Under the pieces are notes generated by a model, which saw nothing but the letters and a program-made list of their open reading frames with translations, did not search any database and was not told the DNA's origin. Positions 2,921-51,332 of a DNA stretch of 64,000 nt are shown here, in pieces. The stretch is from Auricularia sp. M13. Taxonomy: Eukaryota; Basidiomycota; Agaricomycetes; Auriculariales; Auriculariaceae. Position 1 is the stretch's first letter, and every line of letters begins with the position of its first letter. A program made the position numbers and the translations under genes. Where the stretch lies: NCBI GenBank assembly GCA_037042915.1, contig CM073194.1:4092001-4156000 (forward strand), in the 5' to 3' direction.

Positions 2921-3249
2921 ACGCATTCATCTGTAGAATACGCGAAGAAGTTGCATGGACTGAATGAATATACTGTACCGTGACCATGACCAGCAAGTTC
3001 ATGAAACGGCGCCCTTGGCGACTGGTCTGTGCAAAACCTTCAAGGGGTCACAACCTGCGCATGGCGAAGTCAACCATCTGGTTATCACCGGGATGGCCGC
3101 GCGTTGAGCGACAACTCTGAGCTAGTGGACTAAAAACAGTTGTATAACTGGATCAACCTACAGAAAACATTATTGGATGTTATCAGATCGGGATGCGAGA
3201 GGATTGCACTGAAGAGCTTTTGTGTGCTAAGGAGCGACCTAGAAGTAAT
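2921..3249. other. Convergent intergenic spacer
   Basis: This 329 bp lies between two convergent stop codons. I see no ORF with coding character and no RNA gene; it presumably holds both 3' UTRs. Confidence 0.6.
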
Positions 3250-6017
3250 TTAAGGATCCAGAGGAGCAGCAACTCGCCACGTGGCGTCCGCCGCATAGCC
3301 GACCGCACCATCCTGACTCTTCGGTCCTCCCTCGACGGCGAGCCAGACCTCGGAGTTGTAGTGGCGCCAGTTGTGGCCGGCGATGTTGAAGGACTGCAGC
3401 GTGACGGCAGACGCGTCACCCGCGCCGGGCTGCGCACAGAACGTCGCGTCGCGCTTGAAGATGTCGCTGCCATCGTCGCGCGCGATCTGCAGGCGGAAGC
3501 TGGAGTGGCGGAGGAACTGCCCGGCGAAGTTGCTGGCCTCGAACGAGTAGCAGCTGGGGTCCGCGAGGCCCGCGCGCGCGACGAACGTCGCGTCTGCGCG
3601 CGTCGTGGCGTCGGATGAGGAGTTCGCGACGGACGTGACGGCGAGCGAGGCGATGTGGCGCAGATAATGGTCCGTCAGCCCGGCCGTCGTCACCTGGAAC
3701 GAGACGCGCGCGTCCGCCGCGATGTCCGCGCCGCTGCGCCACCACGGCGAGGCGACCTGCCACGTCGTGTCCTCCGCGAACGATTTCTTCGTGTCCCACG
3801 GGTTGAGGCCGAAGCTGCTGGCGAGGTACGCCTTGCCGTCGTAGGACCGGAGGAACTGGCCGGGAAGGCTGTACGCCTCGAAGCGCACGCCGGACTTGGT
3901 GCCTCCCACGCGCAGGCAGAAGGTCGCGTCGTGCTTAAACGCCGCAGTGTTGTTGAGCGCGTCGAGCCGGATGCGGTTCTTCTGGTGGCGCAGGAAGCGG
4001 CCGGGCTGGTTGCACGACTCGAACGACCAGCAGGAGGAGGATGCGAGACCCGCGCGCACGCGGAACGTCGTTTCCTTGCGCGAGGCGGCATCCGAAACGG
4101 TGGAGGTCACACCGAGCGAGTCGGAATGGCGCAAGTAGCGGTCGGTGGAGCCCGGCGTCGTAACGCCCAGCGAGATGGACTCGCCCGCGCGCAACCACGC
4201 GACCGAATTAAGGACGGCCAGGTGGATGTTCTTGAGCTGGTCGAAGTTGCCCTTGAACACCTGGCGGTCGTACGTGTAGTAGCCGTTCATCTCGTTCTCG
4301 ACGTCCGTAGGCTCGGTGTAGATGGAGCCCGAGAGGCCGCGACCCCAGATAAGGCCCTGGAGCGTAGCGGAGACCTCGACGTAGCGCCTGTTGTACGCAG
4401 CGACGTCCTTGACGACCTCGTAGCTGAAGCCCTTGCCGGGCTGCCACTCATGGCCGGCGACAATGAGGCCAATCCCGCCGAACTCGCCCAGCTGCGCGAA
4501 GCGGTCCGCCGTGGGCAGGTGCGTGCTGCCGGGCCCGACGTAGATGTGGTCGTCGATGATGTCGCCGTTGCCCGGGTCGCGGCCGCAGCAGTTCGAGCCC
4601 GAGTTGCCGTTAATGGGGCGCGTCGCGTCGAAGGACTTGGTGAGGTCGGCGATGCGCGCCTCGTCGTACTCGGCCCAGCCCTCGTTGAACGGGATCCACT
4701 GCACGATGGACGTGATGCCGCGGTGCAGGTCGATCATGCGCTTCAGCTCGTCCTCGAAGTTCGTGCGGTCCGTGGGAGACGGCGTGCCGTCAGTGCGCAT
4801 GGCGGGCATGTCCTGGAAGACGAGCAGACCAAGGCGGTCGGCGTGGTAGAACCAGCGCGCGGGCTCGACCTTGATGTGCTTGCGGACGGTGTTGAAGCCG
4901 AGCGCCTTCTGCTGCTCGAGATCGAAGGCGAGGGCCTCGTCGGTGGGCGCGGTGTAGATGCCGTCTGGCCAGTAGCCCTGGTCGAGCGTGCCCATCGTGA
5001 ATATGAAGCTGGGCATCGTTAGTGAACCCGCACAGAACGTGCAAACAGAGTATGGACGCACCGGCCGTTCAGCACAGGGCGCAACCAGCCGTTGACAATG
5101 GCCGTACCGACGCTGCGCATGCCAAAGTATCCAGTGACAACATCACCCGTGCTCAGAGACACGCGGAGGTCATAAAGGAAAGGGTCGTCGGGGCTCCAGA
5201 GACGGGCATTTGGCACGGAGATGCGCAAGGGTTTGCCGACAACAGCAGTAGCAATTCCGACCGGGAGGCCTTTGCTCGAGACAATGGCCGTGACGAGACC
5301 CTTGGTCCCGGCACTAGTCTTGACGTCGAGGTTGAGCACACCAGCATGGATGTCGGGCGTCGTGTCGAGCTGGGTGATGCGCGCCTCTGGGGCCGGCTCG
5401 AGCCAGACAGTCTGCCAGATACCAGACGCAGCGGTGTAGAAAATGCCCGTGCCGTTCAGGCGCTGCTTGCCGAGCGGGATGCCCGCGGCGTCCACGGGCG
5501 AGTACACGCCAACAATAATTTCGTTCGACTGGCCCTTGCCCTTCAGCTGCGGGGTGATGTCGAAGATGAAGGCGTCGTAGCCGCCGGAGTGCGAGCCGAC
5601 CTCCTTGCCGTTGACCCACACCGTCGCGCGCCAGGTGACCGCGCCGAAGTTGAGCAGGACGCGGCGGCCGGCCCACGCCGCGGGCACGGTGAACGTGCGG
5701 CGGTAGAACGAGTTGGTCTCGTGCCGCATGATACCCGAAATCGCGGACTCCAGCGGGAAGGGGACCAGGACGGTCTCCGCGAGCGTCTGCCCCGTCGGCG
5801 GGCTCGTGATCTGCGACGACGCGGCGAACTCCCACTGGCCGTTGAGCGACTGCCAGTCGCGCCGCACGAGCTGCGGGCGCGGGTACTCCGGCCAAGGGTT
5901 GGTCAGCGACACCTTCGACGTCCACGGCGTCGTGAGCGGGGGCGTCTTCTGGACGTAGGCTGCGTCCGCGGCCGTGCTGAAGGCCGCAAGGGCCAGAGTC
6001 AAATATCTGAAGGCCAT
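3250..6017 (-). CDS. Secreted GH2 glycoside hydrolase with two C-terminal CBM42 (AbfB) modules
   Basis: Exons 6017-5062 and 5008-3250 (one 53 bp intron, phase 2) encode 904 residues. A signal peptide (hydrophobic to about residue 19, cut after AADA) marks secretion. A GH2 sugar-binding domain covers about 45-200, the Ig-like domain about 205-300 and the TIM barrel about 318-555. The barrel shows the GH2 acid/base Glu418 in FNEGW and the probable nucleophile Glu474 in GEFGG. About 563-715 and 718-900 are two homologous beta-trefoil AbfB units, each with a GLA..C.SFES block and a (F/Y)LRH repeat; the family binds arabinofuranose side chains. Beta-galactosidase, beta-glucuronidase or beta-mannosidase activity cannot be told apart here. 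A role on arabinose-decorated plant polysaccharides is inference. A TATAAA at 6144-6149 precedes the gene. Confidence 0.88.
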
Positions 6018-36254: not shown

Positions 36255-39200
36255 CTATGCGCTCCGTCTCTGGCGGTCTGTGAGCGCGAGGATGAAAAGC
36301 GCCGGCATGCCGGACACCATGACCAAAGCCCTGTCAGTGTCCGAGTCGGTCAGCAGTCAGGCTACTCTGAAAAAATCGAGGCGAACAACTGACACGGGAG
36401 GGAGCACCGTCACGCCCCACTTGTTCGCCAGCAGGCCCATGATAAACGGGTACGTCGCCGAGCCCACTGCCATCGTCACAAGTAGGCAATGAGCTTCAAG
36501 TTCAACTGGCCAGTGGCGGGAACCACCAGCATCGACTCGCACCTTGCCCGAACCCGGCGATCCACCCGATGGCGCCGACGACGAGGTGCGGCGGGAACCA
36601 GGGCCCGTGGCCCGCGCCGGAGATGATGAGCGGGTAGATGGGCCCGAGGAACATGCCCATGAAGGACACCGCGATGGCGTCCCCGACCAGGTGGCGCAGC
36701 TGCCAGACGACCACGTCGAATCTACGCCTCTCTCCTCAGGATACACTGGAATGGGTCGGAAAGGAAAGCACGTACGCGGCGGCGAGGGCGCTGTAGACGA
36801 AGACGACGCGACGCCGGCCGACCTGGTCATAGGTGAGGGTGAGAATTTTGAAATTTGGCGTTCAGCGGCGCCTGTGTGTTAAGGAGAGACTGTATCTGTA
36901 CCTTCTCGCTGAAGGGTGGTAGGAGCATGCGCCCGATCATAAGACCTTTTGGCAGACTCTCAGCATGCTTTCTGAGGGAATACATATTTGGAACACCGTG
37001 ACATACCGCCGTAAAATCCAGACGAGACGTAACCGGTGTCCACGCCGCCGCCGCGCTGGTCGACGAGGTACGTGACGATCCAGCCTGCCAGTGAGATTAT
37101 AAGTAAATTATGAGACGAGCCTCTCCTCCTGGGACAAACCCCAACTTGCAGCAAGCCTGAGAGAATTTTCGACGCACCTCCGATTGTGATCTCCAGTCCC
37201 GTGTAGAACACGATGACGAAGGCGAGGTAGTGCAGAACGCGGAGACGGAAGAGCTGCTTGTACTTCTGCAGCGTCCCAACTTCAGAGTGGCCCGCCTCCG
37301 CTGTGCCTTCGTGTTCCTCCGTTGGAAGAGTCGCAGCGGTCTCCTCGTCCTCTCGCGGGAACAGACTCTCGTTCTCGCGCATCACCACTGATCGAGTGCG
37401 ATGGGGAAAGAAGGGAACTGCTGAGATACAGATACATACCTTCTTGCCGCTTGCCCTTGAACACGACCCACAGCTCGAACGTGATGGCGACGCTGAGCCC
37501 GCACGAGATGATGTTGATGTAGCTCCAATGGCGCTGGTGCGCGAACGGCGTCGCCGCGAAGGGCGAGAGCACCGCTCCCAGGCCTCATGCAGCGTCTCAG
37601 CACACCCAAAGGGGGGGGAAGCGACGCACCGTACAGCCCATGCAGCATGCTCATGCGCGCGTGCACGGCGTCCTTGTCGCGCCCCGCGGCGACGAAGCCG
37701 TTGCACTGCGCGGCCTGGATGGCCATCCCGACGCCAACGATCCACGACATCGCCATCATCACCGGGAACGGCGGCGCGGGTATTTGCACGGCGTATGCGG
37801 CGGATTGGAGGGCGGCGCCTTCACGTTGCGAGTTGGCGAGTCAGCGACTCTTCGCAGAGAGTGATGACGGGCCATGGTCATGGCGACGCCTGGAACAGGG
37901 CGCGAGCACCGGCGCTATATGCGCCTTCCGTTTCGGGAAGGAAGGAGCACCGCCACCTGTCACCACGCTCGCACTCGCTCCCCGCGTCCCGCGCGCTACT
38001 CGTCACCTCGAGCGCCGCCAATGCGGCACAGAGCTCGCCTATGCGACCTCTAGCCGTCGCTCGAGTATGCGGGCGCCGGAGTCAGGGCTCGGCCTGCTCC
38101 ATCAGCCGACTCCTATCAGCACCGCGGTGGCCGCCCTGGCCTTGTCCTCACCGTTATGACCGTCTACTCTCGTCCCTTACCCCTCGATGTGTATATCGTT
38201 CGACTCGCGCTTCAAATCCCCACATATTCCGTTCGTTTTATCGCACCGGACTCTGTCTCTCTCTGTTGCATGTGCTCACTCTCCTCCCCCTTCCTCTCTC
38301 TCTGGATCGATAATCACCGCCTCATCGCGTTCTCATCATGTGTATATATTCTCCGGCGTTCGTAGGAGTCAGGCAGTTTTAGTTTTCCCCCATCTCTGGC
38401 TCGAGTTTTGAGCACGGAGCCCGAGTCCCCCCTCAGCAGCCAAAAAGTCACTCACTCGGACCTGAGAGGCGGCCAACCTCCTCAGTCCTAGCCCTTCCTT
38501 CGTCCTCAGTGCATATATTCGCTATCTACGGGATCTCCGAGTCGATCGTAGCGACGTGGACTAGCACTCCTACCGGGTCCCACCCGAGCTCCTAGCACTA
38601 CCGCCGAACCCTTGCGTCATTTGTGGTGACCACCGCAGGGACCGCAGGTAGGTAGGTCCACCCGCGGCGCCCCATCGATCGCCCATCGGCCCTGGCAACG
38701 TCCAAGCCCGAACGCCGTACCCTTCCTGTCCGCGGAGCCAGCAACACCGCGCACCGCGCGAACCCTCCCTCCGAGCCCCAGGCGCCCTCGTCGCTCGCTC
38801 GACGATTCAAGCATACTCCATCACCTACCGATCTCGCGTTAGCCAAGAAGAAACAAGAAGCCGCGAAAAAGAAAGCGCAGCGTACCTCTTCGCAGCAACA
38901 AGCCGCTTCCGGATCGTCCGCGCGCGCTCCAACACCGTCTCAGCGTCGAAACCCGAGTCGGGCCGCTTCTACAAGTCGTCAGCTGCGCGCTCAAGCCGCC
39001 GCTTCGTTCCACTCTCGCTCACCATCCGCATCCCCACCGCTCTCGCGCGCTTTCGCAGACGTCGACGACTTCCCGCGACTAGCGGACGAACCTGCTCCGT
39101 CGCGCGACTCGTCCGACCTCACACCCTCGCCGTCTCAGCAGCCGCCGAGTCCCAGCGTTCTTGTCGCCGCGTTTAAATCGCTACACGCGCCTTCGCCGTC

Positions 39201-42200
39201 CCCTTCGCCGACCGCGTCGCCTTCTCCCCCTCGTACACCCTCGCCGCGACCGCTGCCCGTCATGGCCGAACCGATGCCCATGCCGACGGAGCGCCGCGCG
39301 CCCAAGTTCGACGGCAATGGTCGTACTCTGGTCCAGTTCCTCAGCGATTACAAGCGTCTTGCCGATGCTGCGCTGCTCACCGAGTCACAGGCGATCGAGC
39401 GTATTGTTATATACCTCGCCGCCGGTCCTCGCAAGCTCGTCGAGCGATACGCCGAGTTCCGCAGGCCCACGAGTTGGGACGCCTTTCGTGACCGGTTTGT
39501 CGAAGATTATCTTGACGCGCAAGAGCCCGACGAGTACCGCCGCTCGGACTACGACGACTTCCTCGTGAAATCCAAGGCTGATCCGCCGCGTTCAGTCGAC
39601 AAGTTAGGCGAGTTCACGCGCGTGTTCCGCTCTATGGCGGCGGACGTCCAACGTGCTGGTGGTCTCAGTGACGTCGAAATGCGTAAACACTACTGCACCG
39701 TCCTCGAGTCCGCGATCGGCAAGGAGTTCCGCACCCGTATGCTCGTCGAATACAAGGGCAAGACGCGCTCCGAGTGGCTCATCACGGAGATGCTCAAGCA
39801 GGGCAAGATCTTGTTGAAGGAGGCCGAGGCGGACGCGGACGCGTACTTTCCGCAGGAGGTTGGCGCCGCGACCGTGCCCGCCGCGCCGTCGTCGTCTGTG
39901 CCCACCGTTAAAATCGAAGAACAACTGAACGTCTTGTTCAGCCGCCTCACTTCGCGAATTGAGCAGCTGGAACGTACGTACCGTGCTCCGTCGGCGGCGC
40001 ATGTTCACGTTGCTCCCGGTGCTGCGTCGGGCCCCACGCCTGCTATACCTGTCGGCTCTACGCATGCCCACGTATCAGCCTCGGCTGACCTATCGTGCTA
40101 CTATTGTGGGGGCACTCACCGCATGCCGGACTGCTCGCTCCTTCAAGAGGACCTCGCGATGGGCCGCTGCCTGAAGAACGAGCAAGGCCGCGTCGTGTAT
40201 CCCAATGGCGAGACGATTCGCGGCGGATTCGGCGGCAAGATGCGCGAGCGTGTCCAGGAGTTCAATGCCGCCCACCCAGAATACGAGAAGAAAAGAGGAG
40301 CGTCAGCCGCGGCTATGCTTGTCGAGCTGGGAGATGCGTACTTTGCACCGCTGCAGGACTGCGTTTCTGCGTCTTCCGCACCCGAGTTTACCGCCGAGGA
40401 CGCTGCGCAGGCCTGGGCGTCCTTCGTCGCTGGCGAAACGTTCCAATACGAAGAAGGAGAGCGCCGCCGGTATAACCTGCGCGCGCGTCAACCGGCATCC
40501 AATGCTCCGGTCCAAGACACGCGTACCAAGCCGCCAGCACCGATGCCGGTCACCAGCGCGACGCCCGTCGTCCGTGACACCCCGCCGCATCTTGAACGGG
40601 GTCGCGTCGACCGCATGCCGCCATCGTCGCCGTCGAAGGAGAAGGGCCGGACAGTTAGCGCCGCAGATCGACCGGGATCTGCAACCGCACAGCCGCCCAC
40701 TCCCGTTCCTCGTTCCGCGACGATCGAGGAGGTTCCTGACGACGACGCGCCGCCACCCGCGCCGCCCCGTCCTGTTACTCTCCCCTCTGCGCTGTCAGCG
40801 CCGCGCCCGCAGTTCCAGCTCCGCTCATCGCTCGAGACGGATGGCCTCGCGAAGGTCATCAGCGAGCGCATCCTGCGAACGCAGGTCGCGCTGTCGGTCC
40901 AAGATCTCCTCGCGCTCAGCCCTTCCCTTCGCCGTCATTGGCACAACGAGACAGCGGTCAAACGCGTCACCATTGGCTACACGGGCGCCGACGACGCCGA
41001 ACAGGACGCGCGCGATGTTTTCCATTTCGAGCGCATCAGTCAGCCTGGTGTTTCGCGGGATCTAATTGCCGCAGAGGTCGCGCTTCCGCTACGCTACTTG
41101 GATTGCATCGTCGGTGATTACAGAGCCGAAGGCGTTGTGGATAACGGCTCCCAGCTGGTACTGATCAGCCAGAAATTCTGGCAGGCGCTTGGCTGCCCGC
41201 TCGACAAAGAACACCGTATCAACATGACGGCAGCCAATAATTCGGCCGCCCTCACGAAGGGACTCTGCGCGAACCTCGAGGTCCAAATCGGCGGAATTAC
41301 CTGGTACCTGCAAGCCCACGTCGTCGAGGATGCCCCCTTTTCGCTACTGCTCGGTCGCCCGTTCTTGTGCGTGTCATCCGCCCGCGAGGACAACCTCCCC
41401 GACGGCTCTACCTTCCTCACCTTGAACGACCCGAATTCGGGTCGCGCGGCCCGTATTCCAACTCGAGCTCGTCGCAACCCACGCTCCGCGGTGCTCCCCG
41501 CTGATCAGCCTTCGGGTTTTTGAAGCGGGAAGACCAGGCCGCCATCCATACCGTATACCACTACCCTGCGCGCCGCGTCCTTCCCGACCCCGAAACCCCT
41601 CTCATCCAGCTAGAGCATTCCTCGCCCCGCATACCCCCTTCTTCGCCCGCCGCCTGTCTGTTACTGCTCGCCGTCTCATCTATTATTTTCCTTGCGCCTT
41701 CCGTTTCCCTCATCATCTCCTACATGTTCCGAATCGTCCTCATCTCGCTTATCGTATCTCTCTTTTCGTCTGATCTGCTTCCCGCCTCATATCGCGTTCC
41801 CTCCCCTCTCGGTGTCCTACTGCCCTCAACCGTCCTTGTACTAAAATCTGTCCTTACAGGATTCCCATCCTCCATCGCGCAATCGACCACACCGTTCGCC
41901 GCGTATGAACAGCAGTGCACGGCGCCTCGCGCTACGCTACATGAGCGCCCTGACTGTGCTATCCGACTGCCCCATGAGTACCCAGCGAACGGCGAAGTCG
42001 TTCCAGCGCAAGCGCACGAGCAAACCGCGAGAGCCGTCGGCAGCGTCAGCCACGGTCGTACAGAGTGCCCAGCGCCTCGGGCAGCGTCAAACGTCGTACA
42101 ACGAGAAGCCGCAGCGAACACTGGCGGTATTCGAAGCGGGAGTGTACCAGAGATCGAGTGTCTTGCTATATGCATGGACGCCGCGGACGATCGCGCGCAC

Positions 42201-45200
42201 CAGCCGTCGCACCCCGTTCCGACCGACATCCAGACCGTCTCACCACTGCGAATTGACGGCGACGAAATGCTGTTCTACGTTCAACGCGTCGACGAGCCGC
42301 ACGATTCGTCTACGCTATCCGCCGCTGAGGTGTTCGCTCAAATCAAGTACGACATCGCCGCCGACGGCTCTCGTCGTGTCCCTGACGGTCCAAAGCCTGA
42401 CACTGGCTGCCCCAAGAAGCCCTATAAGCCGGTAGCACGCAAGGTGAAACCGCTACAGGAGCGTCTGCCCGAAGAGTACCGCGTGGTACGCACGCGGCCG
42501 CCTGACTGCATGGACGGTATGCCCGTATTACCGACGCGGCCGCCCGTTTGGTCCCCCTCTACGCCGCACCTTACGGTCGCGCGAATGGCGGGTTTCAACC
42601 TCGATAAGGACGGGTTCCTGCTGTCCGAAGAAATTAGGCTGTTCCAGTTTCTGATCGAGGAGCATCAAGAGGTGTTCGCTTGGGAAGAACGCGAGCGCCG
42701 TCGCTTCAAGGACTGCTACGTACCGCCAATCCGCTACCCTGTCGTCCCTCACGAGCCCTGGACCGACCGGAACATTCCCATACCGCACGCGATTCGCGAC
42801 CGCGTCATAGATCTGCTTAAACAGAAGATCGAGGCTGGCGTTTACGAGGCGTCCAGCTCAGCGTACCGCTCTGGGTGGTTCTGCGTGGTCAAGAAAGACG
42901 GGTCGTCGCTTCGTATTGTTCACGATCTACAACGTCTCAATAGTGTCACCATTCGCGACGCAGGCACTTTGCCCTCACCCGACGAATTTTCCGAAACGTG
43001 CGCGGGTCGCGCGTGCATCGGTGCGCTCGACCTGTTCAGCTCGTACGACCAGCAACTTGTACACCAAGATTCGCGCGATTTGACGACCTTCCAGTCGCCC
43101 GTCGGTCCACTGCGTCTCATTTCGCTGCCACAGGGCTATTCAAACGCGGTGGCCGTCCAGCAGGGCAATGTCACCTTTATCCTCGCTCCAGAGATGCCGG
43201 AGCACGTTCTGGCTTTCGTCGACGACGTTACGCCGCTGGGACCGCGCTCGTACTACTTCAAACCCGACGGCAGTCATGAGACAATACCGGAGAACGCTGG
43301 CATCCGCCGTTTTGTCTGGGAGTACGCGACATCGCTGAACCGCATCTTGCAGCGGCTGCGCCATGCCGGGGCGTCGATCTCGGGCAAAAAGGCGATTATA
43401 TGCGCGCCTCGCGCCGTCATCGTGGGCTACGATGTTTCGTTCGAAGGGCGCCGCCCGTTGCAAGACAAAGTACAGCGCGTAATCGACTGGCCGCGCTGCA
43501 AGAACGTTTCCGACGTGCGCGCATTCCTTGGTACCGTCGGCCTCGCGCGCCTCTGGATACGCAATTTCGCGCTCATTGCGCGCCCTCTCACCAACTTGGC
43601 AAAGAAGGACGTTCCTTTCGACTTCGATACCGACTGTCATGAGGCAATGCTACGGCTCAAGGAGGCCGTTATTGCGGCACCCTGCATCAAACCGATCGAC
43701 TACCGTTGCGGCCGCGACGTTATCCTCGCCGTGGACTCGTCGATCCACGGCGTCGGCTTCGTCTTGCTACAGCTCGGTGAGAAGAAGGAGCGCTGCATTG
43801 CGCGTTTCGGCAGCATCGCTTGGAATGACGTGGAGGCGCGCTATTCACAGCCAAAGGTCGAGCTCTACGGTCTTTGGCGCGCGCTGCGTAACATGCGCCT
43901 GTACGTCGTTGGCCTGCCTGTGCTACTCGTCGAGGTGGACGCCAAGTACATCAAGGGGATGCTGAACCATCCGGATATGCAACCCAGCGCCACGATCAAC
44001 CGCTGGATCGCAGGCGTCCAGCTCTTCAATATCAAGCTCGTCCACGTTCCCACGACCCAGCACTCGGCTGCAGACGGTCTCTCGAGGCGTGCGCCGTCGC
44101 CTAACGACCCTGAGGAGACGGACGACCACGAGGAGTGGCTGGATCGTCACCTTGGCCTTTGGATCGCGCTCGTGCTCGCGCGCGCACCCCACTCGCTCCC
44201 GCTCGCGAACCGATACGGACAGCTCGCGCCCGCGCCGATCCATCGCGCTGCGGAGAGCGCGATGATTCAATTGCCCCGGGAGGGACCCTTCGCGTCGACA
44301 TTCGCGCTCGCGCTCGCAGCCAACGAACCGCGCTCACACGTACCGACGCGTGAGGAAAACAGACTCCCCGACGGCGCGTTCATTGTGCCCCCACGTTCTG
44401 ACGCTCTCCGCCGCAAGGACGAGCAGCTACACGACTTCGAGCGCTTCTTGACCGACTTTGTGCTGCCGCCTGACTTACAGCCGAAGCACCGGCCGTGGTT
44501 CTATCGTCAAGCTGGCAAGTTCTTCGTCACAGACGGTCGTCTCATGCGCCGCGATCCAGAGAAGAAACACAAGGTCGTCGTCAAGGATCCAGTGCGACGG
44601 GTCGCGATCCTGGAAGCTGCGCACGACGACACGGGCCACAAGGGTGCCTTCGCGACGGACGCGCTCATCCGTGAGCGTTTCTGGTGGCCGGGCTTGGCTG
44701 AGGATGTGCGCTGGTACTGCGCCTCCTGTGATGTCTGTCAACGCCGTCAGGTGTTCAAGCTGAAGATCCCCCCGGTTGTCGCGCGTGTGGCCTCTCTATT
44801 CCAACGTATACATCTCGACACGATGTGGATGCCTCCGTCGCGCGGAAAACACGCCATCCATCATGCCCGCTGCGCTCTCAGCTCCTGGCCAGAGGCGATC
44901 CCTATCGCTAAAGAAACTGCACTCGTCTTGGCCCGTTTTCTGCTCGAGCTGCAGTGTCGTTTCGGGTTTCTTTACGAGGTCATTACCGACAACGGCGCGC
45001 CGGTCGTAGCCGCCGTGGAACAGCTCGCAGCGAAATGGGGAATTCACCACATTCGCATCTCCGGCTACAACTCGCAAGCTAACGGCGTAATCGAGCACAA
45101 GCATTTCGACCTCCGTGAAGTGCTCGTCAAACTCTGTGACGACGGCGACCCTTCTCACTGGGTCGATGTCCTCCCCCTCGCGCTCTGGGCGGAACGTGTC

Positions 45201-48200
45201 ACGGTTCGGCGAACGACGGGAATGTCGCCGTACTACGTTGTACATGGCATGGAGCCCGTCATGCCGCTCGACCTCGCGGAGGCGACGTACCTTACGCCCC
45301 CGCTCCAGCCGCTACTCTCGACCGAGGATCTGATCATCGTCCGCGCCCGCCAGCTCCAACGCCGCGCAGAAGACCTCGAGGCCGTCCGCGAGCGTGTTCG
45401 CGAGGCGCGCTTCAAGAATGCTGAAGATTTCATCAGGAAATTTGGTCACTCCATCCGCGATTTCAACTTCAAGCCAGGCGAACTTGTGCTCGTCCGCAAC
45501 ACGCAGATTGAGAAGCATCTCGGAGCGAAGAAAATCGACGACCGCTATTACGGGCCTATGGTCGTCGTGCAACGTCGCGGTCGTGGATCGTACACACTCG
45601 CCGAGCTCGACGGCTCCATTTCGATACTGCGCTGTGCTGCTTTTCGCGTCATTCCGTACTTTGCGCGTTCTCGAGCGGTCTTCGACATCGACGATGTTCT
45701 GGCCAACGGCCGCGCACAACTCGATCTCATTGACAAGATACAGGCCGAGGAGCGTGGCGACGACGACGACGATTCCAGCGCTGTTGCCAGCCGTGGCAAT
45801 TAATCGTGTTCCTCCATCGCCGCTCCACGCCATCCATTTCCAACTGTCCGCGCGCTCTCCCCTACTCGTACGTCGAGCGCTGGTCAACCGCAAGCTCAGC
45901 GACGCGAAGCAACTCGCCGTATTCCGCCTTTCCGTTCTCGTCTTTGGACACTATCTCCCAGATCCGCTTCCACGTCTCCCAGTCGACTCCCTGCTTGTTC
46001 AAATCGTACTCGCTCGCCAGCTGGTTGATTCGTTCATCAAAATAAAACCCTTGGTCTAGCCTGGCCACTGCGTTCTCGTATGCGGCGCCCATGATCGCCG
46101 CCGCCCTGTCAATGTCAGCGTTGAGCACCGGGCACGGCTTCAGCAGATCGAAGATGTCCTATGCCTCGTCAACGGGCGACCAGCGGGCAAACCTTCTTCC
46201 ACTCGCCTTGAGAACCTCGGCGTCGTTGCGGTAATCGACAAGGGCCTGCATCGGGATGTCAGGTTTGATCTTCTTGATCTGCAGCGTGTGCGCGGCGACT
46301 ACGAGCTCGGCCCACAGTGCGCTCGGGCGCAGCTCGCGGTGGTTGAAGCGCTCCTTGGGCACGATCTTCAGGGCGCGCATGGCGAAAATTCCATGGATGA
46401 ACTGCACGCAGTCCGAGAAGACCTTCTATAGGAACGTCAGCCACTGTAACCAACCGCGCCGCCCACGCACCGACGCTCGCGCTTTCTCTTCGGCCTCGAA
46501 CAACATTTCGGCGTGCTCTCTGTCGTTCCTGTTCGCTGTCAGCCACGCCCGCTTGGCCACACTGATTGCACGAACATCGTAGGGCAGCCGAACTCCTCGT
46601 GCACCGCGCCACAGAAAGAGCAAGTACCAAACTTCGGGTCCATCGGAGTAATGCGCGTCGAGCTGGCCGGGGACGGCCAGTATTTAATTGCCCCGGGAAA
46701 TGACGGGCCATGGTCATGGCGACGCCTGGAACAGGGCGCGAGCACCGGCGCTATATGCGCCTTCCGTTTCGGGAAGGAAGGAGCACCGCCACCTGTCACC
46801 ACGCTCGCACTCGCTCCCCGCGTCCCGCGCGCTACTCGTCACCTCGAGCGCCGCCAATGCGGCACAGAGCTCGCCTATGCGACCTCTAGCCGTCGCTCGA
46901 GTATGCGGGCGCCGGAGTCAGGGCTCGGCCTGCTCCATCAGCCGACTCCTATCAGCACCGCGGTGCCACCCTGGCCTTGTCCTCACCGTTATGACCGTCT
47001 ACTCTCGTCCCTTACCCCTCGATGTGTATATCGTTCGACTCGCGCTTCAAATCCCCACATATTCCGTTCGTTTTATCGCACCGGACTCTGTCTCTCTCTG
47101 TTGCATGTGCTCACTCTCCTCCCCCTTCCTCTCTCTCTGGATCGATAATCACCGCCTCATCGCGTTCTCATCATGTGTATATATTCTCCGGCGTTCGTAG
47201 GAGTCAGGCAGTTTTAGTTTTCCCCCATCTCTGGCTCGAGTTTTGAGCACGGATAGTGTAGCCGGAGTCCGGTTCGCGAACCTCCGAACCCCCGAACCGA
47301 ACCCGAACCGAACCAAGGTTCGGGCTGGTTCAGGTTCAGGTTCAGTGCCAAGCCGAACCTCGTCCGAACCGTGTTCAAACCGAACCGAACCTGCGAACCT
47401 CCTCCTATATAAAGCTCAGACATCTCAACTTTTGTTGGGTTAAAGACCACCTTTGTCCCAGTTCTGCTTATGTAACATGTATATCAGCTCTACGAAGGTG
47501 TCTATCAAACCTTAGGCATTGTTGGCAAGGAGTTGAGGAGGCAACCAGATGACATAATTCATTCCCACAATGTGATATGCAAGCTTGCAGCTCTAAATTC
47601 AGGCTCTGCAAGACCTTATAACATTAACAGAGAGTCATAATCATGAATTATGATCAACCACCATCCATATGTGCTTCGTACTAGTATTTAAAGTATCTAT
47701 TTATGATTATATAGTGTGTTCAAGGTTCGAACCCCGAACCGAACCCGAACCGAACCCCAGGTTCGGGTTTGATGGTTCGGGACCAGGTTCGGTTCGAGGT
47801 TCGGAAAAATTGCCGCCGAACCGCACCGAACCGAACATCGGCTACACTAAGCACGGAGCCCGAGTCCCCCCTCAGCAGCCAAAAAGTCACTCACTCGGAC
47901 CTGAGAGGCGGCCAACCTCCTCAGTCCTAGCCCTTCCTTCGTCCTCAGTGCATATATTCGCTATCTACGGGATCTCCGAGTCGATCGTAGCGACGTGGAC
48001 TAGCACTCCTACCGGGTCCCACCCGAGCTCCTAGCACTACCGCCGAACCCTTGCGTCAGTGAGAGAGCGAGGAGATGCGTACCAAGGACTAGGCACTATT
48101 TGGGGTATGAGACGGTTAGGAAATACTGTATGAGAATGAGTGGCGGGAACACGAAGGCGCACCTTTCCAAAACCGATGGCGTCGGTGAGCCACAGGTTGG

Positions 48201-48649
48201 CGATGGAGCCGAAGATGAAGCCCTGTTTCAAAGCCGTCACAATCAGCGTCTGGCGACGGGAACTGCAGCACAAAAAACTGAAGCGTACCACGCATTTGAA
48301 CAAGAAGAGCGTCGACACGACCGTATAATTGATCTGCAAAGCATGAGCAATGCCAGTTACTAGTGAGTACGCGACAATATCAAAGCGATACCTTGTAATG
48401 ATCCTGGATGGTCGTGAGCAATGGTCCGAGGCTCGCGTCGTTCCAGCCACCGAGCCAGAGACACAGGCAGAGCGTGCTGAACTGGTACCAGTCCCTCCGC
48501 GCGCGCGCAGTCACCGTCGCCGACCCAGTCTGCCTCGCCGCCACACGAGCACTCAGGTTGGCAGCGGAAGCGGAGTCTTGCTTTGCGCCAGCAGGCTCCT
48601 TGACACCCACCGCAGCGAGCTCGATATCGCGCGAACCAGACGAAGCCAT
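36255..48649 (-). CDS. MFS transporter (fungal BSC6-like family), split by a 10 kb LTR element in an intron
   Basis: Thirteen exons: 48649-48392, 48333-48289, 48222-48163, 48095-48083, 37818-37630, 37583-37440, 37387-37178, 37084-37007, 36945-36902, 36822-36776, 36721-36543, 36466-36394 and 36330-36255. They total 1416 nt, or 471 residues, with consistent phases. Family blocks occur in order: LGGWNDASLGPLL, GSIANLWLTDAIGFGK, PAPPFPVMMAMSW, AAQCNGFVAAG, MSMLHGLYGLGAVLSP, ITIGGWIVTYLVDQRGGG, GRRRVVFVYSALAA and PPHLVVGAIGWIAGFGQ. These fit 12 membrane helices. Exon 4 is a 13-nt microexon coding the bridge K-CLVL-G. Intron 4 (37819-48082) contains the LTR element; without it the intron would be about 66 bp. 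The substrate is unknown; family members act at the plasma or vacuolar membrane. Confidence 0.87.
37861..37864. repeat. Target-site duplication, left copy (GTGA)
   Basis: GTGA abuts the left LTR and is repeated at 48059-48062 directly after the right LTR, as expected for the 4-6 bp duplications of Ty3/Gypsy integration. Confidence 0.7.
37865..38619 (+). repeat. Left LTR
   Basis: A 755 bp direct repeat beginning TGACGGGCCATGG and ending CTTGCGTCA. It matches the right LTR almost base for base except for the element nested in the latter. Confidence 0.93.
38624..38635 (+). other. Putative primer-binding site
   Basis: TGGTGACCACCG lies 5 bases after the left LTR. It starts TGG, the complement of a tRNA CCA end. 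I did not identify the tRNA. Confidence 0.4.
39262..41523 (+). CDS. Gag-protease ORF of the LTR element
   Basis: 753 codons from the first ATG. The N-terminal half is the capsid-like Gag region (FDGNGRTLVQFLSDYKRL onward), followed by a CCHC zinc knuckle (CYYCGGTHRMPDC, residues 279-291) and a Pro/Ser-rich stretch. A retropepsin-type protease is centred on DNGS at Asp627. The same frame is open upstream to about 38656 with a Ser/Pro/Arg-rich sequence but without an ATG. The ORF overlaps the start of pol by four bases in another frame, an arrangement for which related elements use recoding or reinitiation. Confidence 0.88.
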   Translation: MAEPMPMPTERRAPKFDGNGRTLVQFLSDYKRLADAALLTESQAIERIVIYLAAGPRKLVERYAEFRRPTSWDAFRDRFVEDYLDAQEPDEYRRSDYDDFLVKSKADPPRSVDKLGEFTRVFRSMAADVQRAGGLSDVEMRKHYCTVLESAIGKEFRTRMLVEYKGKTRSEWLITEMLKQGKILLKEAEADADAYFPQEVGAATVPAAPSSSVPTVKIEEQLNVLFSRLTSRIEQLERTYRAPSAAHVHVAPGAASGPTPAIPVGSTHAHVSASADLSCYYCGGTHRMPDCSLLQEDLAMGRCLKNEQGRVVYPNGETIRGGFGGKMRERVQEFNAAHPEYEKKRGASAAAMLVELGDAYFAPLQDCVSASSAPEFTAEDAAQAWASFVAGETFQYEEGERRRYNLRARQPASNAPVQDTRTKPPAPMPVTSATPVVRDTPPHLERGRVDRMPPSSPSKEKGRTVSAADRPGSATAQPPTPVPRSATIEEVPDDDAPPPAPPRPVTLPSALSAPRPQFQLRSSLETDGLAKVISERILRTQVALSVQDLLALSPSLRRHWHNETAVKRVTIGYTGADDAEQDARDVFHFERISQPGVSRDLIAAEVALPLRYLDCIVGDYRAEGVVDNGSQLVLISQKFWQALGCPLDKEHRINMTAANNSAALTKGLCANLEVQIGGITWYLQAHVVEDAPFSLLLGRPFLCVSSAREDNLPDGSTFLTLNDPNSGRAARIPTRARRNPRSAVLPADQPSGF
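41520..45803 (+). CDS. Pol ORF of the LTR element: reverse transcriptase, RNase H, integrase
   Basis: About 1427 codons. The reverse transcriptase spans about 42800-43450 (YEASSSAYRSGWFCVVKK, LPQGYSNA and the active-site FVDD near 43214). RNase H lies at about 43690-44080 (DVILAVDSSIHGVGF). The integrase spans about 44590-45350, with an H-H-C-C zinc domain (CASCDVCQRRQ) and the DDE core (HLDTMWMP, DNGAPV, GVIEHKHFDLREV). The first ~300 codons are a poorly conserved linker. The C terminus (YYGPMVVVQRRGRGSYTLAEL) is the usual integrase tail without a chromodomain. Confidence 0.9.
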   Translation: MKREDQAAIHTVYHYPARRVLPDPETPLIQLEHSSPRIPPSSPAACLLLLAVSSIIFLAPSVSLIISYMFRIVLISLIVSLFSSDLLPASYRVPSPLGVLLPSTVLVLKSVLTGFPSSIAQSTTPFAAYEQQCTAPRATLHERPDCAIRLPHEYPANGEVVPAQAHEQTARAVGSVSHGRTECPAPRAASNVVQREAAANTGGIRSGSVPEIECLAICMDAADDRAHQPSHPVPTDIQTVSPLRIDGDEMLFYVQRVDEPHDSSTLSAAEVFAQIKYDIAADGSRRVPDGPKPDTGCPKKPYKPVARKVKPLQERLPEEYRVVRTRPPDCMDGMPVLPTRPPVWSPSTPHLTVARMAGFNLDKDGFLLSEEIRLFQFLIEEHQEVFAWEERERRRFKDCYVPPIRYPVVPHEPWTDRNIPIPHAIRDRVIDLLKQKIEAGVYEASSSAYRSGWFCVVKKDGSSLRIVHDLQRLNSVTIRDAGTLPSPDEFSETCAGRACIGALDLFSSYDQQLVHQDSRDLTTFQSPVGPLRLISLPQGYSNAVAVQQGNVTFILAPEMPEHVLAFVDDVTPLGPRSYYFKPDGSHETIPENAGIRRFVWEYATSLNRILQRLRHAGASISGKKAIICAPRAVIVGYDVSFEGRRPLQDKVQRVIDWPRCKNVSDVRAFLGTVGLARLWIRNFALIARPLTNLAKKDVPFDFDTDCHEAMLRLKEAVIAAPCIKPIDYRCGRDVILAVDSSIHGVGFVLLQLGEKKERCIARFGSIAWNDVEARYSQPKVELYGLWRALRNMRLYVVGLPVLLVEVDAKYIKGMLNHPDMQPSATINRWIAGVQLFNIKLVHVPTTQHSAADGLSRRAPSPNDPEETDDHEEWLDRHLGLWIALVLARAPHSLPLANRYGQLAPAPIHRAAESAMIQLPREGPFASTFALALAANEPRSHVPTREENRLPDGAFIVPPRSDALRRKDEQLHDFERFLTDFVLPPDLQPKHRPWFYRQAGKFFVTDGRLMRRDPEKKHKVVVKDPVRRVAILEAAHDDTGHKGAFATDALIRERFWWPGLAEDVRWYCASCDVCQRRQVFKLKIPPVVARVASLFQRIHLDTMWMPPSRGKHAIHHARCALSSWPEAIPIAKETALVLARFLLELQCRFGFLYEVITDNGAPVVAAVEQLAAKWGIHHIRISGYNSQANGVIEHKHFDLREVLVKLCDDGDPSHWVDVLPLALWAERVTVRRTTGMSPYYVVHGMEPVMPLDLAEATYLTPPLQPLLSTEDLIIVRARQLQRRAEDLEAVRERVREARFKNAEDFIRKFGHSIRDFNFKPGELVLVRNTQIEKHLGAKKIDDRYYGPMVVVQRRGRGSYTLAELDGSISILRCAAFRVIPYFARSRAVFDIDDVLANGRAQLDLIDKIQAEERGDDDDDSSAVASRGN
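45862..46690 (-). other. Antisense coding-like segment between pol and the right LTR
   Basis: On the minus strand, opposite to the element, several stretches have protein-like composition. One has a small zinc-binding-looking CSFCGAVHEEFGC motif near 46590-46630. Others read FNHRELRPSALWAELVVAAH (about 46270-46350) and GVDWETWKRIWEIVSKDENG (about 45920-45990). It is not one continuous frame. It may be a captured host fragment or an accessory antisense gene of this element lineage. It runs in the same sense as the MFS gene around it. Confidence 0.4.
46701..48058 (+). repeat. Right LTR, carrying a nested hAT-type MITE
   Basis: It begins TGACGGGCCATGG and ends CTTGCGTCA like the left LTR. It is 1358 bp instead of 755 because of a 596 bp insertion plus its 8 bp target duplication. 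Confidence 0.93.
47254..47849. mobile_element. Non-autonomous hAT-type element (MITE), 596 bp
   Basis: The ends are inverted repeats, TAGTGTAGCCG and CGGCTACACTA. The flanks AGCACGGA at 47246-47253 and 47850-47857 form a perfect 8 bp target duplication that is single in the left LTR. An 8 bp duplication with TAGNG-type ends is the mark of hAT elements. About 150-180 bp inside each end is filled with GGTTCGG / CCGAACC motifs in both orientations, while the centre (about 47440-47720) is AT-rich with no transposase frame. It entered after the LTR element integrated. Confidence 0.9.
48059..48062. repeat. Target-site duplication, right copy (GTGA)
   Basis: Matches 37861-37864 and directly follows the right LTR. 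Confidence 0.7.
48083..48095 (-). other. 13-nt microexon of the MFS transporter gene
   Basis: TGCCTAGTCCTTG is flanked by AATAG before and GTACGC after (minus strand). It joins AAG of exon 3 (phase 0) to GC-GCC of exon 5 (phase 1), giving GFGK-CLVL-GAALQ. Without it the phases of exons 3 and 5 do not match and the conserved helix-linker is broken. Confidence 0.75.
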
Positions 48650-49031: not shown

Positions 49032-50543
49032 TCAAGCAAAGCCGGCGGTGACGACCCAGCTGACGTCGTCGTTGAACGACGCGGTGGCGTCGAAGTCGTG
49101 CACGCCGCCGTTGCTGGCGATGCTGAGGTTGTTGTTGAAATGGCGGAAGAAGCGCGTGGGGAAGTTGAACGAGCGTATGGAGTTGCCCTGGCCGTTGAGG
49201 CCGGCCTGCGGGCAGAACGTCGCGTCCTCCTTGAACAGCTGGCTGTTGTCGTTCGCGTTGAGCAGCAGTACGAAGTTGCTGTGCCGCAGGAAGCTACCGG
49301 GCGTGTCCCGGCTCTCGAACGACACGCAGCCGCCGTTCGCCAGGCCGCTACGGACCGTGAAACTCGCCTGCTGCTTCAGAGTGGAGCTGCTCGAGGACGA
49401 GACGACCTGCGTCGCGACGGCTGAGCCCGAGTGCGCGAGGAAGCGCGTCGTGCAGCACGCCGTCGTCGCGCGGAACGAGACGGACGAGCCCACGGAGACC
49501 GCGGGCCCGCTGACCAGGGAGGTCGTGGCATACTTGGCCGCGACGATGTTCGCCTGCACGGAGTTCTCCGTCACGTCGGAGGGGAAACCGGACGTCATGA
49601 CGCCCTCGTAGAACGTGCCCTGCGCGCCGTTGCTGTTGTCACCGCCGATGCCCAGGATGATCGCGCCCTCCTTCTTCATCGGGTTGTAGCCCGATGCCGT
49701 CGGCCGCCCGCCGTTGTAGAACGTCGAGAGCGAGCCCGACGCGGCGTTGCCGCCGCGCAATGCCCAGTGGTTCGGCTCGCCTTTGACGATGGCGGTGAAG
49801 AAGCGGTCGGTGATGCTGGGGTCCGCGGTATTCCTACCCGTCGTGTTGCCAGAGAAGAGGCCGTTCTCGAGGTCGGCCATGAGCCAGGGCCCGCTGCCCG
49901 CGCCGGTGCCCCAGACGGTGCTGGTGCCAAAGTAGATGGCTTCCATGTGGCCGTTGCCCGTGTCGCGGCTGTTCGTCTCGGCGTTGCCGTAGTCGAAGCA
50001 GCACGCGCCGTTGAAGTGCGTCCCGTCCAGCACGGCGTACATGCCCTCCGCCGCGTCGCCCGTCGCGGTGCCGCTCACCGCGTTGTTGCGGTAACCCGTG
50101 CCGGGCGAAACGAACACACCGTACGCCTTTTGTCCATTCAGCGTCACTGGCGCGCCCGTCGCGCTCGCCAAGTTGTCCGCGCCGTTCGACTCCGGCCCAT
50201 TGAAGCCGCCCGGCGGCGCCTGCGTGAGATGGTTGCCGCGGCCGGTCTGGTCGAAGATGGTCGTGATGAGGCAGGTCGTGCCGGCGCAGAAGGAGTCCTG
50301 CGATGCTGCGTTGGCGACGCCGCCGGCCGACAGCGGCGCGATGTTGCGCGTCGCGCCGTCAGAACCGCGCTTGACCTGATACAGCGAGCCGTTGAAGGCG
50401 CTGAAGAGAGCGCGGGTGGTGCTATGTGCGGCCACGCAGGGCGTGCCGCCGGAGGCGTAAATGTCGCAGGGCCCGGCAGCGACCAGGGCGCTGAGAGCAA
50501 GCGCGAGAGTGCAGGCACACTGGAGGCTCTGGCGCGAGAACAT
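49032..50543 (-). CDS. Secreted GH54 alpha-L-arabinofuranosidase with CBM42
   Basis: Single exon, 503 residues. A signal peptide (about 1-23, cut after LVAAG) precedes the mature start GPCDIYASGGTPCVAAHST, which is the classic GH54 N terminus. The catalytic beta-sandwich runs to about 335. By family alignment the nucleophile is Glu226 in ADLENG and the acid/base Asp302 in GGDNSN, 76 residues apart as in AkAbfB. The AbfB (CBM42) beta-trefoil occupies about 345-503 (TRFLAHSG, GLANGGCVSFESRDTPGSFLRH, FPTRFFRHFN). It should release terminal arabinofuranose from arabinoxylan or arabinan outside the cell. An upstream in-frame GTG at 50555 is not a credible start. Confidence 0.95.
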   Translation of the reverse strand: MFSRQSLQCACTLALALSALVAAGPCDIYASGGTPCVAAHSTTRALFSAFNGSLYQVKRGSDGATRNIAPLSAGGVANAASQDSFCAGTTCLITTIFDQTGRGNHLTQAPPGGFNGPESNGADNLASATGAPVTLNGQKAYGVFVSPGTGYRNNAVSGTATGDAAEGMYAVLDGTHFNGACCFDYGNAETNSRDTGNGHMEAIYFGTSTVWGTGAGSGPWLMADLENGLFSGNTTGRNTADPSITDRFFTAIVKGEPNHWALRGGNAASGSLSTFYNGGRPTASGYNPMKKEGAIILGIGGDNSNGAQGTFYEGVMTSGFPSDVTENSVQANIVAAKYATTSLVSGPAVSVGSSVSFRATTACCTTRFLAHSGSAVATQVVSSSSSSTLKQQASFTVRSGLANGGCVSFESRDTPGSFLRHSNFVLLLNANDNSQLFKEDATFCPQAGLNGQGNSIRSFNFPTRFFRHFNNNLSIASNGGVHDFDATASFNDDVSWVVTAGFA

Positions 50544-51332
50544 GTTTCCGTCCACTGCCTGGCGCTCCGCCGCCTGCCAGCGTTTTAAAGACTGTAAGGA
50601 CGGAAGCCATTGTCGTCACGCGCCGTGGCAGCCAACGGGGCGACCTCGGATAGGTGTGCACGCTACAACCGGGGCGGGATAGAAAGAGCACGTGGCCATG
50701 GACACGCTGGCGCCAGTAATATGCAGAGTTCACGAAGTACGGGTCATGCGCAACCATGCTGAAATATGGTCGTGTCCGTCGACCGTACCGTACGGCTCCC
50801 GCCAGACGAAGGCGGTCCGTGATGCAGTTCGCGGACCGTGTCAAGGCGGGCCGTATGCAAGAACTGAAGCGAAGCTGGGGAAACTGCTTCTGAGATTCTA
50901 GCAGCGGGGGAGATGCCATCGTGGTCGGCGAGTACAATATCACGGCCTTGGTTGCAGTAACAAGGACCTCTGCCATTGCGCATACGCCGGTTTATTTACG
51001 GGACGACACTCATGGTGGTGGAAGTGAAAAGACGTTTCGGTCGGAGCTTTCCGAGTCTTCTCCTGCAGCTGAGGTCAAGCAAGTTCAACGGTGTTATGAG
51101 TATATGTAGGAGACTGTAGGAACGACTATTCTCGTGTGCACAGCGGTCGCATTTCACAAATATTCAACTTTGGCGTGCACACTGGTTGGATGAGATTAAC
51201 AAACCTGAGTGCCTCCCGTCATACTTATATGACAAATGTGCCAGAGACACAGCGCCTAATCAATCTCTGCATCGGGGGACCTCTCAGGTCGCGCCAGTCG
51301 CGATCTCCCCTGCCATCATCTAGGATGAAGAG
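50544..51332. other. Intergenic region
   Basis: About 790 bp between the GH54 promoter side and the 3' end of F-box-like C. Only chance ORFs are seen. Confidence 0.45.

Follow-up and report, generated by a model that had tools for sequence, protein, structure and literature searches.

A young Ty3/gypsy-type retrotransposon antisense in a 66-nt intron of an Auricularia MFS transporter gene, with a predicted cryptic splice into its LTR

The window, meaning the whole stretch of 64,000 nucleotides analysed here (C2:4092001-4156000), belongs to a genome of 52.1 Mb in 14 contigs and carries on its minus strand an MFS transporter gene, one intron of which is occupied by an LTR retrotransposon. The features are the following, in order of position:

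36255-48649, minus strand: MFS transporter gene from ATG to stop, 13 exons, 471 residues (exon model and profile match)
36255-37818, minus strand: exons 5-13, dropped from the coding frame of the predicted cryptic transcript (exon model and cryptic-splice prediction)
37819-48082, minus strand: intron 4, 10,264 nt, or 66 nt minus the element and one duplication copy
37861-37864: left copy of the target-site duplication GTGA, read from the flanking sequence
37865-38619, plus strand: 5' LTR, 755 bp
39262-41523, plus strand: gag/protease ORF, 753 codons
41520-45803, plus strand: pol ORF, 1427 codons, with RT, RNase H and integrase
46701-48058, plus strand: 3' LTR, interrupted by a nested MITE
47254-47849: nested hAT-like MITE, 596 bp
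48037-48082, minus strand: predicted cryptic intron, 46 nt, from donor 4 through a junction-made CTGAC to a TAG inside the LTR
48059-48062: right copy of the target-site duplication GTGA, read from the flanking sequence
48083-48095, minus strand: exon 4, a 13-nt microexon immediately before the expanded intron (exon model; same 13-nt exon in the paralogue L041)

The exons of the MFS gene, modelled by hand like those of L041, read as a single frame of 1416 nt with the stop, that is the 471 residues over 13 exons that the initial annotation had proposed, and the protein matches MFS_1 (PF07690) at 4.8e-28 (98.5 bits, cut-off 33.4). No relative of solved structure was found for it at E<=0.1, and a simple Kyte-Doolittle cut-off detects 11 hydrophobic segments, against about 12 membrane helices expected of an MFS protein. 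Leaving intron 4 aside, the remaining 11 introns measure 46-93 nt. An alpha-L-arabinofuranosidase B is encoded nearby (49032-50555, minus strand, 2.2e-166), and a glycosyl hydrolase family 2 / AbfB-domain stretch lies at 3250-6017, also on the minus strand; these neighbours suggest the presence of plant-wall degrading enzymes in the vicinity.

Intron 4 opens with the donor GTACGC at 48082 and closes with ...GTGAAG at 37819, the same two splice sites that had been named before, and once the element (37865-48058, 10,194 nt) is excised together with one GTGA, an intron of 66 nt is left, as the initial annotation had estimated. Its reading of the element as antisense to the gene also stands, the former lying on the plus and the latter on the minus strand. 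The occupied site can be taken as a genuine intron, supported by a homologous gene as well as by the open frame, because the paralogue L041, just beyond the window end, has an ordinary intron of 51 nt there. L041, whose exon model was built from its own sequence, is identical to the window protein at 335 of 457 aligned residues; its 12 introns all agree with those of the window gene in codon and phase, and its exon 4 likewise measures 13 nt, so that the window gene's two halves join in phase at the intron position. In L042, a more distant paralogue, a single frame runs through the intron-4 position, so that this intron is not universal in the family, and in L043 the position looks interrupted (the relatives L041-L044 lie at C2:4156k, 4161k and 4177k and at C1:2867k). 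Between the window gene and L041, dN is 0.194 and dS 1.66 over 457 codons, a comparison that clearly shows long-term constraint, though only for the time before the insertion.

The element itself, judged by its sequence, is a Ty3/gypsy-type LTR retrotransposon (37865-48058), classed on its LTRs and the domain order of its pol. Its paired LTRs of 755 bp have TG...CA ends and are flanked by the target-site duplication, both the gag/protease and pol ORFs are open, and pol presents the order RT, RNase H and integrase, with an FVDD motif near residue 565, RNase H models at residues 703-832 and an H2C2 integrase zinc domain at 1026-1077. The best solved relative of pol is Ty3 Gag-Pol (7q5b, 5.7e-29) and PFV integrase was also matched, while Pfam RVT_1 and rve were absent from pol even at E<=1. 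The likeness to Ty3/gypsy elements therefore lies in Gag-protease followed by RT, RNase H and integrase, and in the TG...CA LTR ends; the present element departs from them in its 4-bp duplications, in LTR ends of the form TGAC...GTCA and in an antisense accessory region that precedes the 3' LTR. This region, between pol and the 3' LTR (45804-46700, minus strand), resembles a spliced accessory gene, occurs in 5/5 full-length copies and at its start reads MDP with the pattern C-x2-C, H and C. The copies resemble one another residue by residue, which suggests that the region codes for a protein or did so in the past; in the window copy the frame is open only in part, and one open stretch that was tested gave no Pfam match.

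At least four further full-length copies are present in the genome, with LTRs 75-79% identical to those of the window copy, which is the sole full-length representative of its sub-lineage among the copies found. Each of four siblings is flanked by a 4-bp duplication, as we read its flanks, and within each the two LTRs are identical but for no more than one mismatch or one gap. Joining the flanks of one sibling (L045/L046, C2:1753023-1762599) restores a minus-strand open frame of 483 codons that the element interrupts, the first part of which has an F-box-like match (E 0.0015) below the Pfam cut-off; at the other three no spanning open frame of at least 70 codons was seen (stop to stop, 14 longest listed). 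The MITE in the 3' LTR of the window copy, with ends TAGTGTAGCC and an 8-bp duplication AGCACGGA, entered the LTR later than the element's own arrival. Its family counts 34 matches genome-wide, 11 of which, besides the nested copy, are full or nearly full length with 91-99% identity.

The element is young, since its two LTRs, compared without the nested MITE, show a single substitution and a single indel over about 754 positions. Taking one or two LTR differences, about 0.2-0.4 disabling changes would be expected in the gene since the insertion, and the probability of finding it intact without selection is 0.82 with one difference and 0.67 with two, the indel rate being assumed at 0.15 of substitutions. 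Because the insertion is so young, the intact 13-exon frame is nearly uninformative: an unselected gene would be found intact with such probability that the open frame is no proof that a 10.3-kb intron is spliced.

Splice sites were scored with a model drawn from 22 introns, 11 of the window gene (intron 4 left out) and 11 of L041, whose intron 7, given a GC donor in the model, was omitted. Reading along the gene strand from donor 4, one meets 20 nt of host intron, the duplication as TCAC and then the LTR end TGACGC; across this junction the host C and the TGAC of the LTR match the branch-point motif CTGAC, and a TAG lies 19 nt beyond the branch A. The resulting cryptic intron of 46 nt equals the shortest of the reference introns (46-93 nt), two of the 22 being also 46 nt. 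Its TAG scores 3.6 as an acceptor vs 2.2 for the true AAG, which lies 10,264 nt from donor 4 and has its own CTGAC 22 nt upstream, and donor 4 itself, at 5.41, falls under the lower quartile (5.90) of the 22 donors. The initial annotation had supposed that the antisense placement would spare the gene the sense-strand signals of the element, an expectation that this LTR end does not bear out, since on the gene strand it provides both a branch-point match and a TAG at the distance of a 46-nt intron.

How exceptional such a site is depends on the rule applied. Under a strict rule (CTRAC, 9-30 nt to the first AG, that AG being YAG, intron of 44-80 nt) acceptors arise in 1.65% of 40,000 random placements of the window sequence, while under a loose one (CTNAY, first AG not GAG) they arise in 31% of 20,000 random placements, at 2722 of 10,104 offsets on the gene strand of the element and at 3183 of 10,104 on the other. 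Only 5 of the 22 real introns comply with the strict branch rule, as compared with 15 of 22 for a loose one, and the spliceosome here therefore does not demand the strict rule. The cryptic site is good, yet some rival acceptor would be common after any insertion, and by the loose rule it is unremarkable. Inside intron 4 there are in addition 46 GT sites scoring at least as high as donor 4, and 28 branch-plus-AG acceptors by a loose rule, a search whose reach excludes the true acceptor at the very end. Poly(A)-like hexamers on the gene strand of the intron are scarce (no AATAAA, one ATTAAA), which gives premature 3' ends no particular advantage. The far end of the element could also be exonised through a donor 40-150 nt ahead of the true acceptor, but the case for this is weak: the best of the eight GT sites there scores 3.7 vs 5.4 for donor 4, although two of the 22 accepted donors score no more than 1.0 and 2.0. 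Skipping of exon 4 was considered as a rescue and rejected, as its 13 nt shift the frame. The predicted products are 155 residues long with the cryptic splice and 149 if nothing is spliced, the former retaining, of the 11 hydrophobic segments, two in full and the greater part of a third.

What the sequence itself shows is the insertion with its duplication, the young age of the element, exons that are all intact and, in the paralogue, a normal intron at the same site. How the gene now behaves is a matter of interpretation, and we consider it probable that a recent antisense insertion, through cryptic splicing into the LTR, has caused the allele to be lost or strongly reduced despite its intact exons. 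According to the mechanism proposed, a Ty3/gypsy-type element landed antisense in the 66-bp intron 4 of the MFS gene, and the spliceosome, which in fungi mostly pairs sites over short introns, would join donor 4 to the LTR acceptor 46 nt away, because the target-site C and the LTR TGAC make a branch point; the message would then run into the LTR and end after 155 residues, and the function of the allele would be lost or strongly cut at the RNA level with all exons in place. Between the three outcomes that had earlier been left open, namely a tolerated giant intron, a knock-down and a recent loss, the sequence favours recent loss or strong knock-down.

A gene that still splices donor 4 to 37819 often enough for a useful transporter would retain, as this one does, the original donor, CTGAC branch point and acceptor as well as an intact frame, and the antisense orientation and the lack of AATAAA on the gene strand point the same way. 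However, the intact frame is expected at this insertion age anyway, a better-scoring acceptor lies 46 nt from donor 4, the intron contains the GT sites and loose-rule acceptors counted above, exon 4 has only 13 nt, and a survey of 42 eukaryotes, at least 14 of them fungi, concludes that fungi splice mainly by intron definition (PMC2397502). We therefore regard tolerance of the giant intron as unlikely, and recent loss or strong reduction as the most likely state of the allele. A mixture of cryptic and full splicing that varies with conditions, giving a conditional or leaky knock-down, is more improbable still: both acceptors are present, but nothing in the sequence points to regulation.

Independently of splicing, small RNAs or heterochromatin aimed at the element could shut the locus. 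The genome holds 13 Piwi-domain matches, several over the cut-off, and 19 RdRP matches, which makes RNAi silencing a live rival, and in Cryptococcus the stalling of spliceosomes is reported to set off siRNA production (Dumesic et al. 2013, as cited in PMC6643885). The element is, however, present in few copies, five full-length ones having been found, and we hold silencing to be no likelier than the tolerated intron. That unrelated pieces were joined in the assembly is hardly credible, given that GTGA matches on both sides, that the tested left flank occurs once in the genome, that the exons either side of the element are in phase with L041 and that four sibling elements share the same kind of 4-bp duplication.

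A broader and unlikely idea is that the LTRs of this element act as a built-in splice trap: an insertion after a C would, whichever way round it lies, create CTGAC with an acceptor and divert host donors. Read inward, the outer ends start with TGAC at both sides in 5/5 full-length copies, followed after 31 nt by a CAG at one end and after 19-28 nt by a TAG at the other. Earlier AGs exist at some ends (GAG at 10 or 19 nt, TAG at 26, AAG at 19), and the effect of such a trap would therefore vary.

In animals and plants, intronic LTR insertions can trap splicing or end transcripts early, and the proposal made here is likewise that an LTR acceptor captures a host donor; the difference is that the present host has short introns and that the insertion directly follows a 13-nt microexon. 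In Cryptococcus neoformans, a HARBINGER copy placed in the second URA5 intron led to failure to splice and to auxotrophy (PMC6643885). That ura5::HAR1 reporter is likewise a basidiomycete gene with a transposon-occupied intron and intact exons, but gene and species are different and its transposon is of the DNA type and was engineered (PMC6643885), whereas the element here is a natural LTR retrotransposon and its splicing is predicted. Among the literature titles and abstracts searched, no LTR element in a basidiomycete intron with measured splicing was encountered, which is not proof of absence.

The locus offers a natural test of a short-intron spliceosome facing a sudden intron growth from 66 to 10,264 nt, with L041 as the unexpanded control and one explicit choice of junction, 48083^48036 vs 48083^37818. 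More generally, intact exons flanking a young insertion should not be taken as a working gene.
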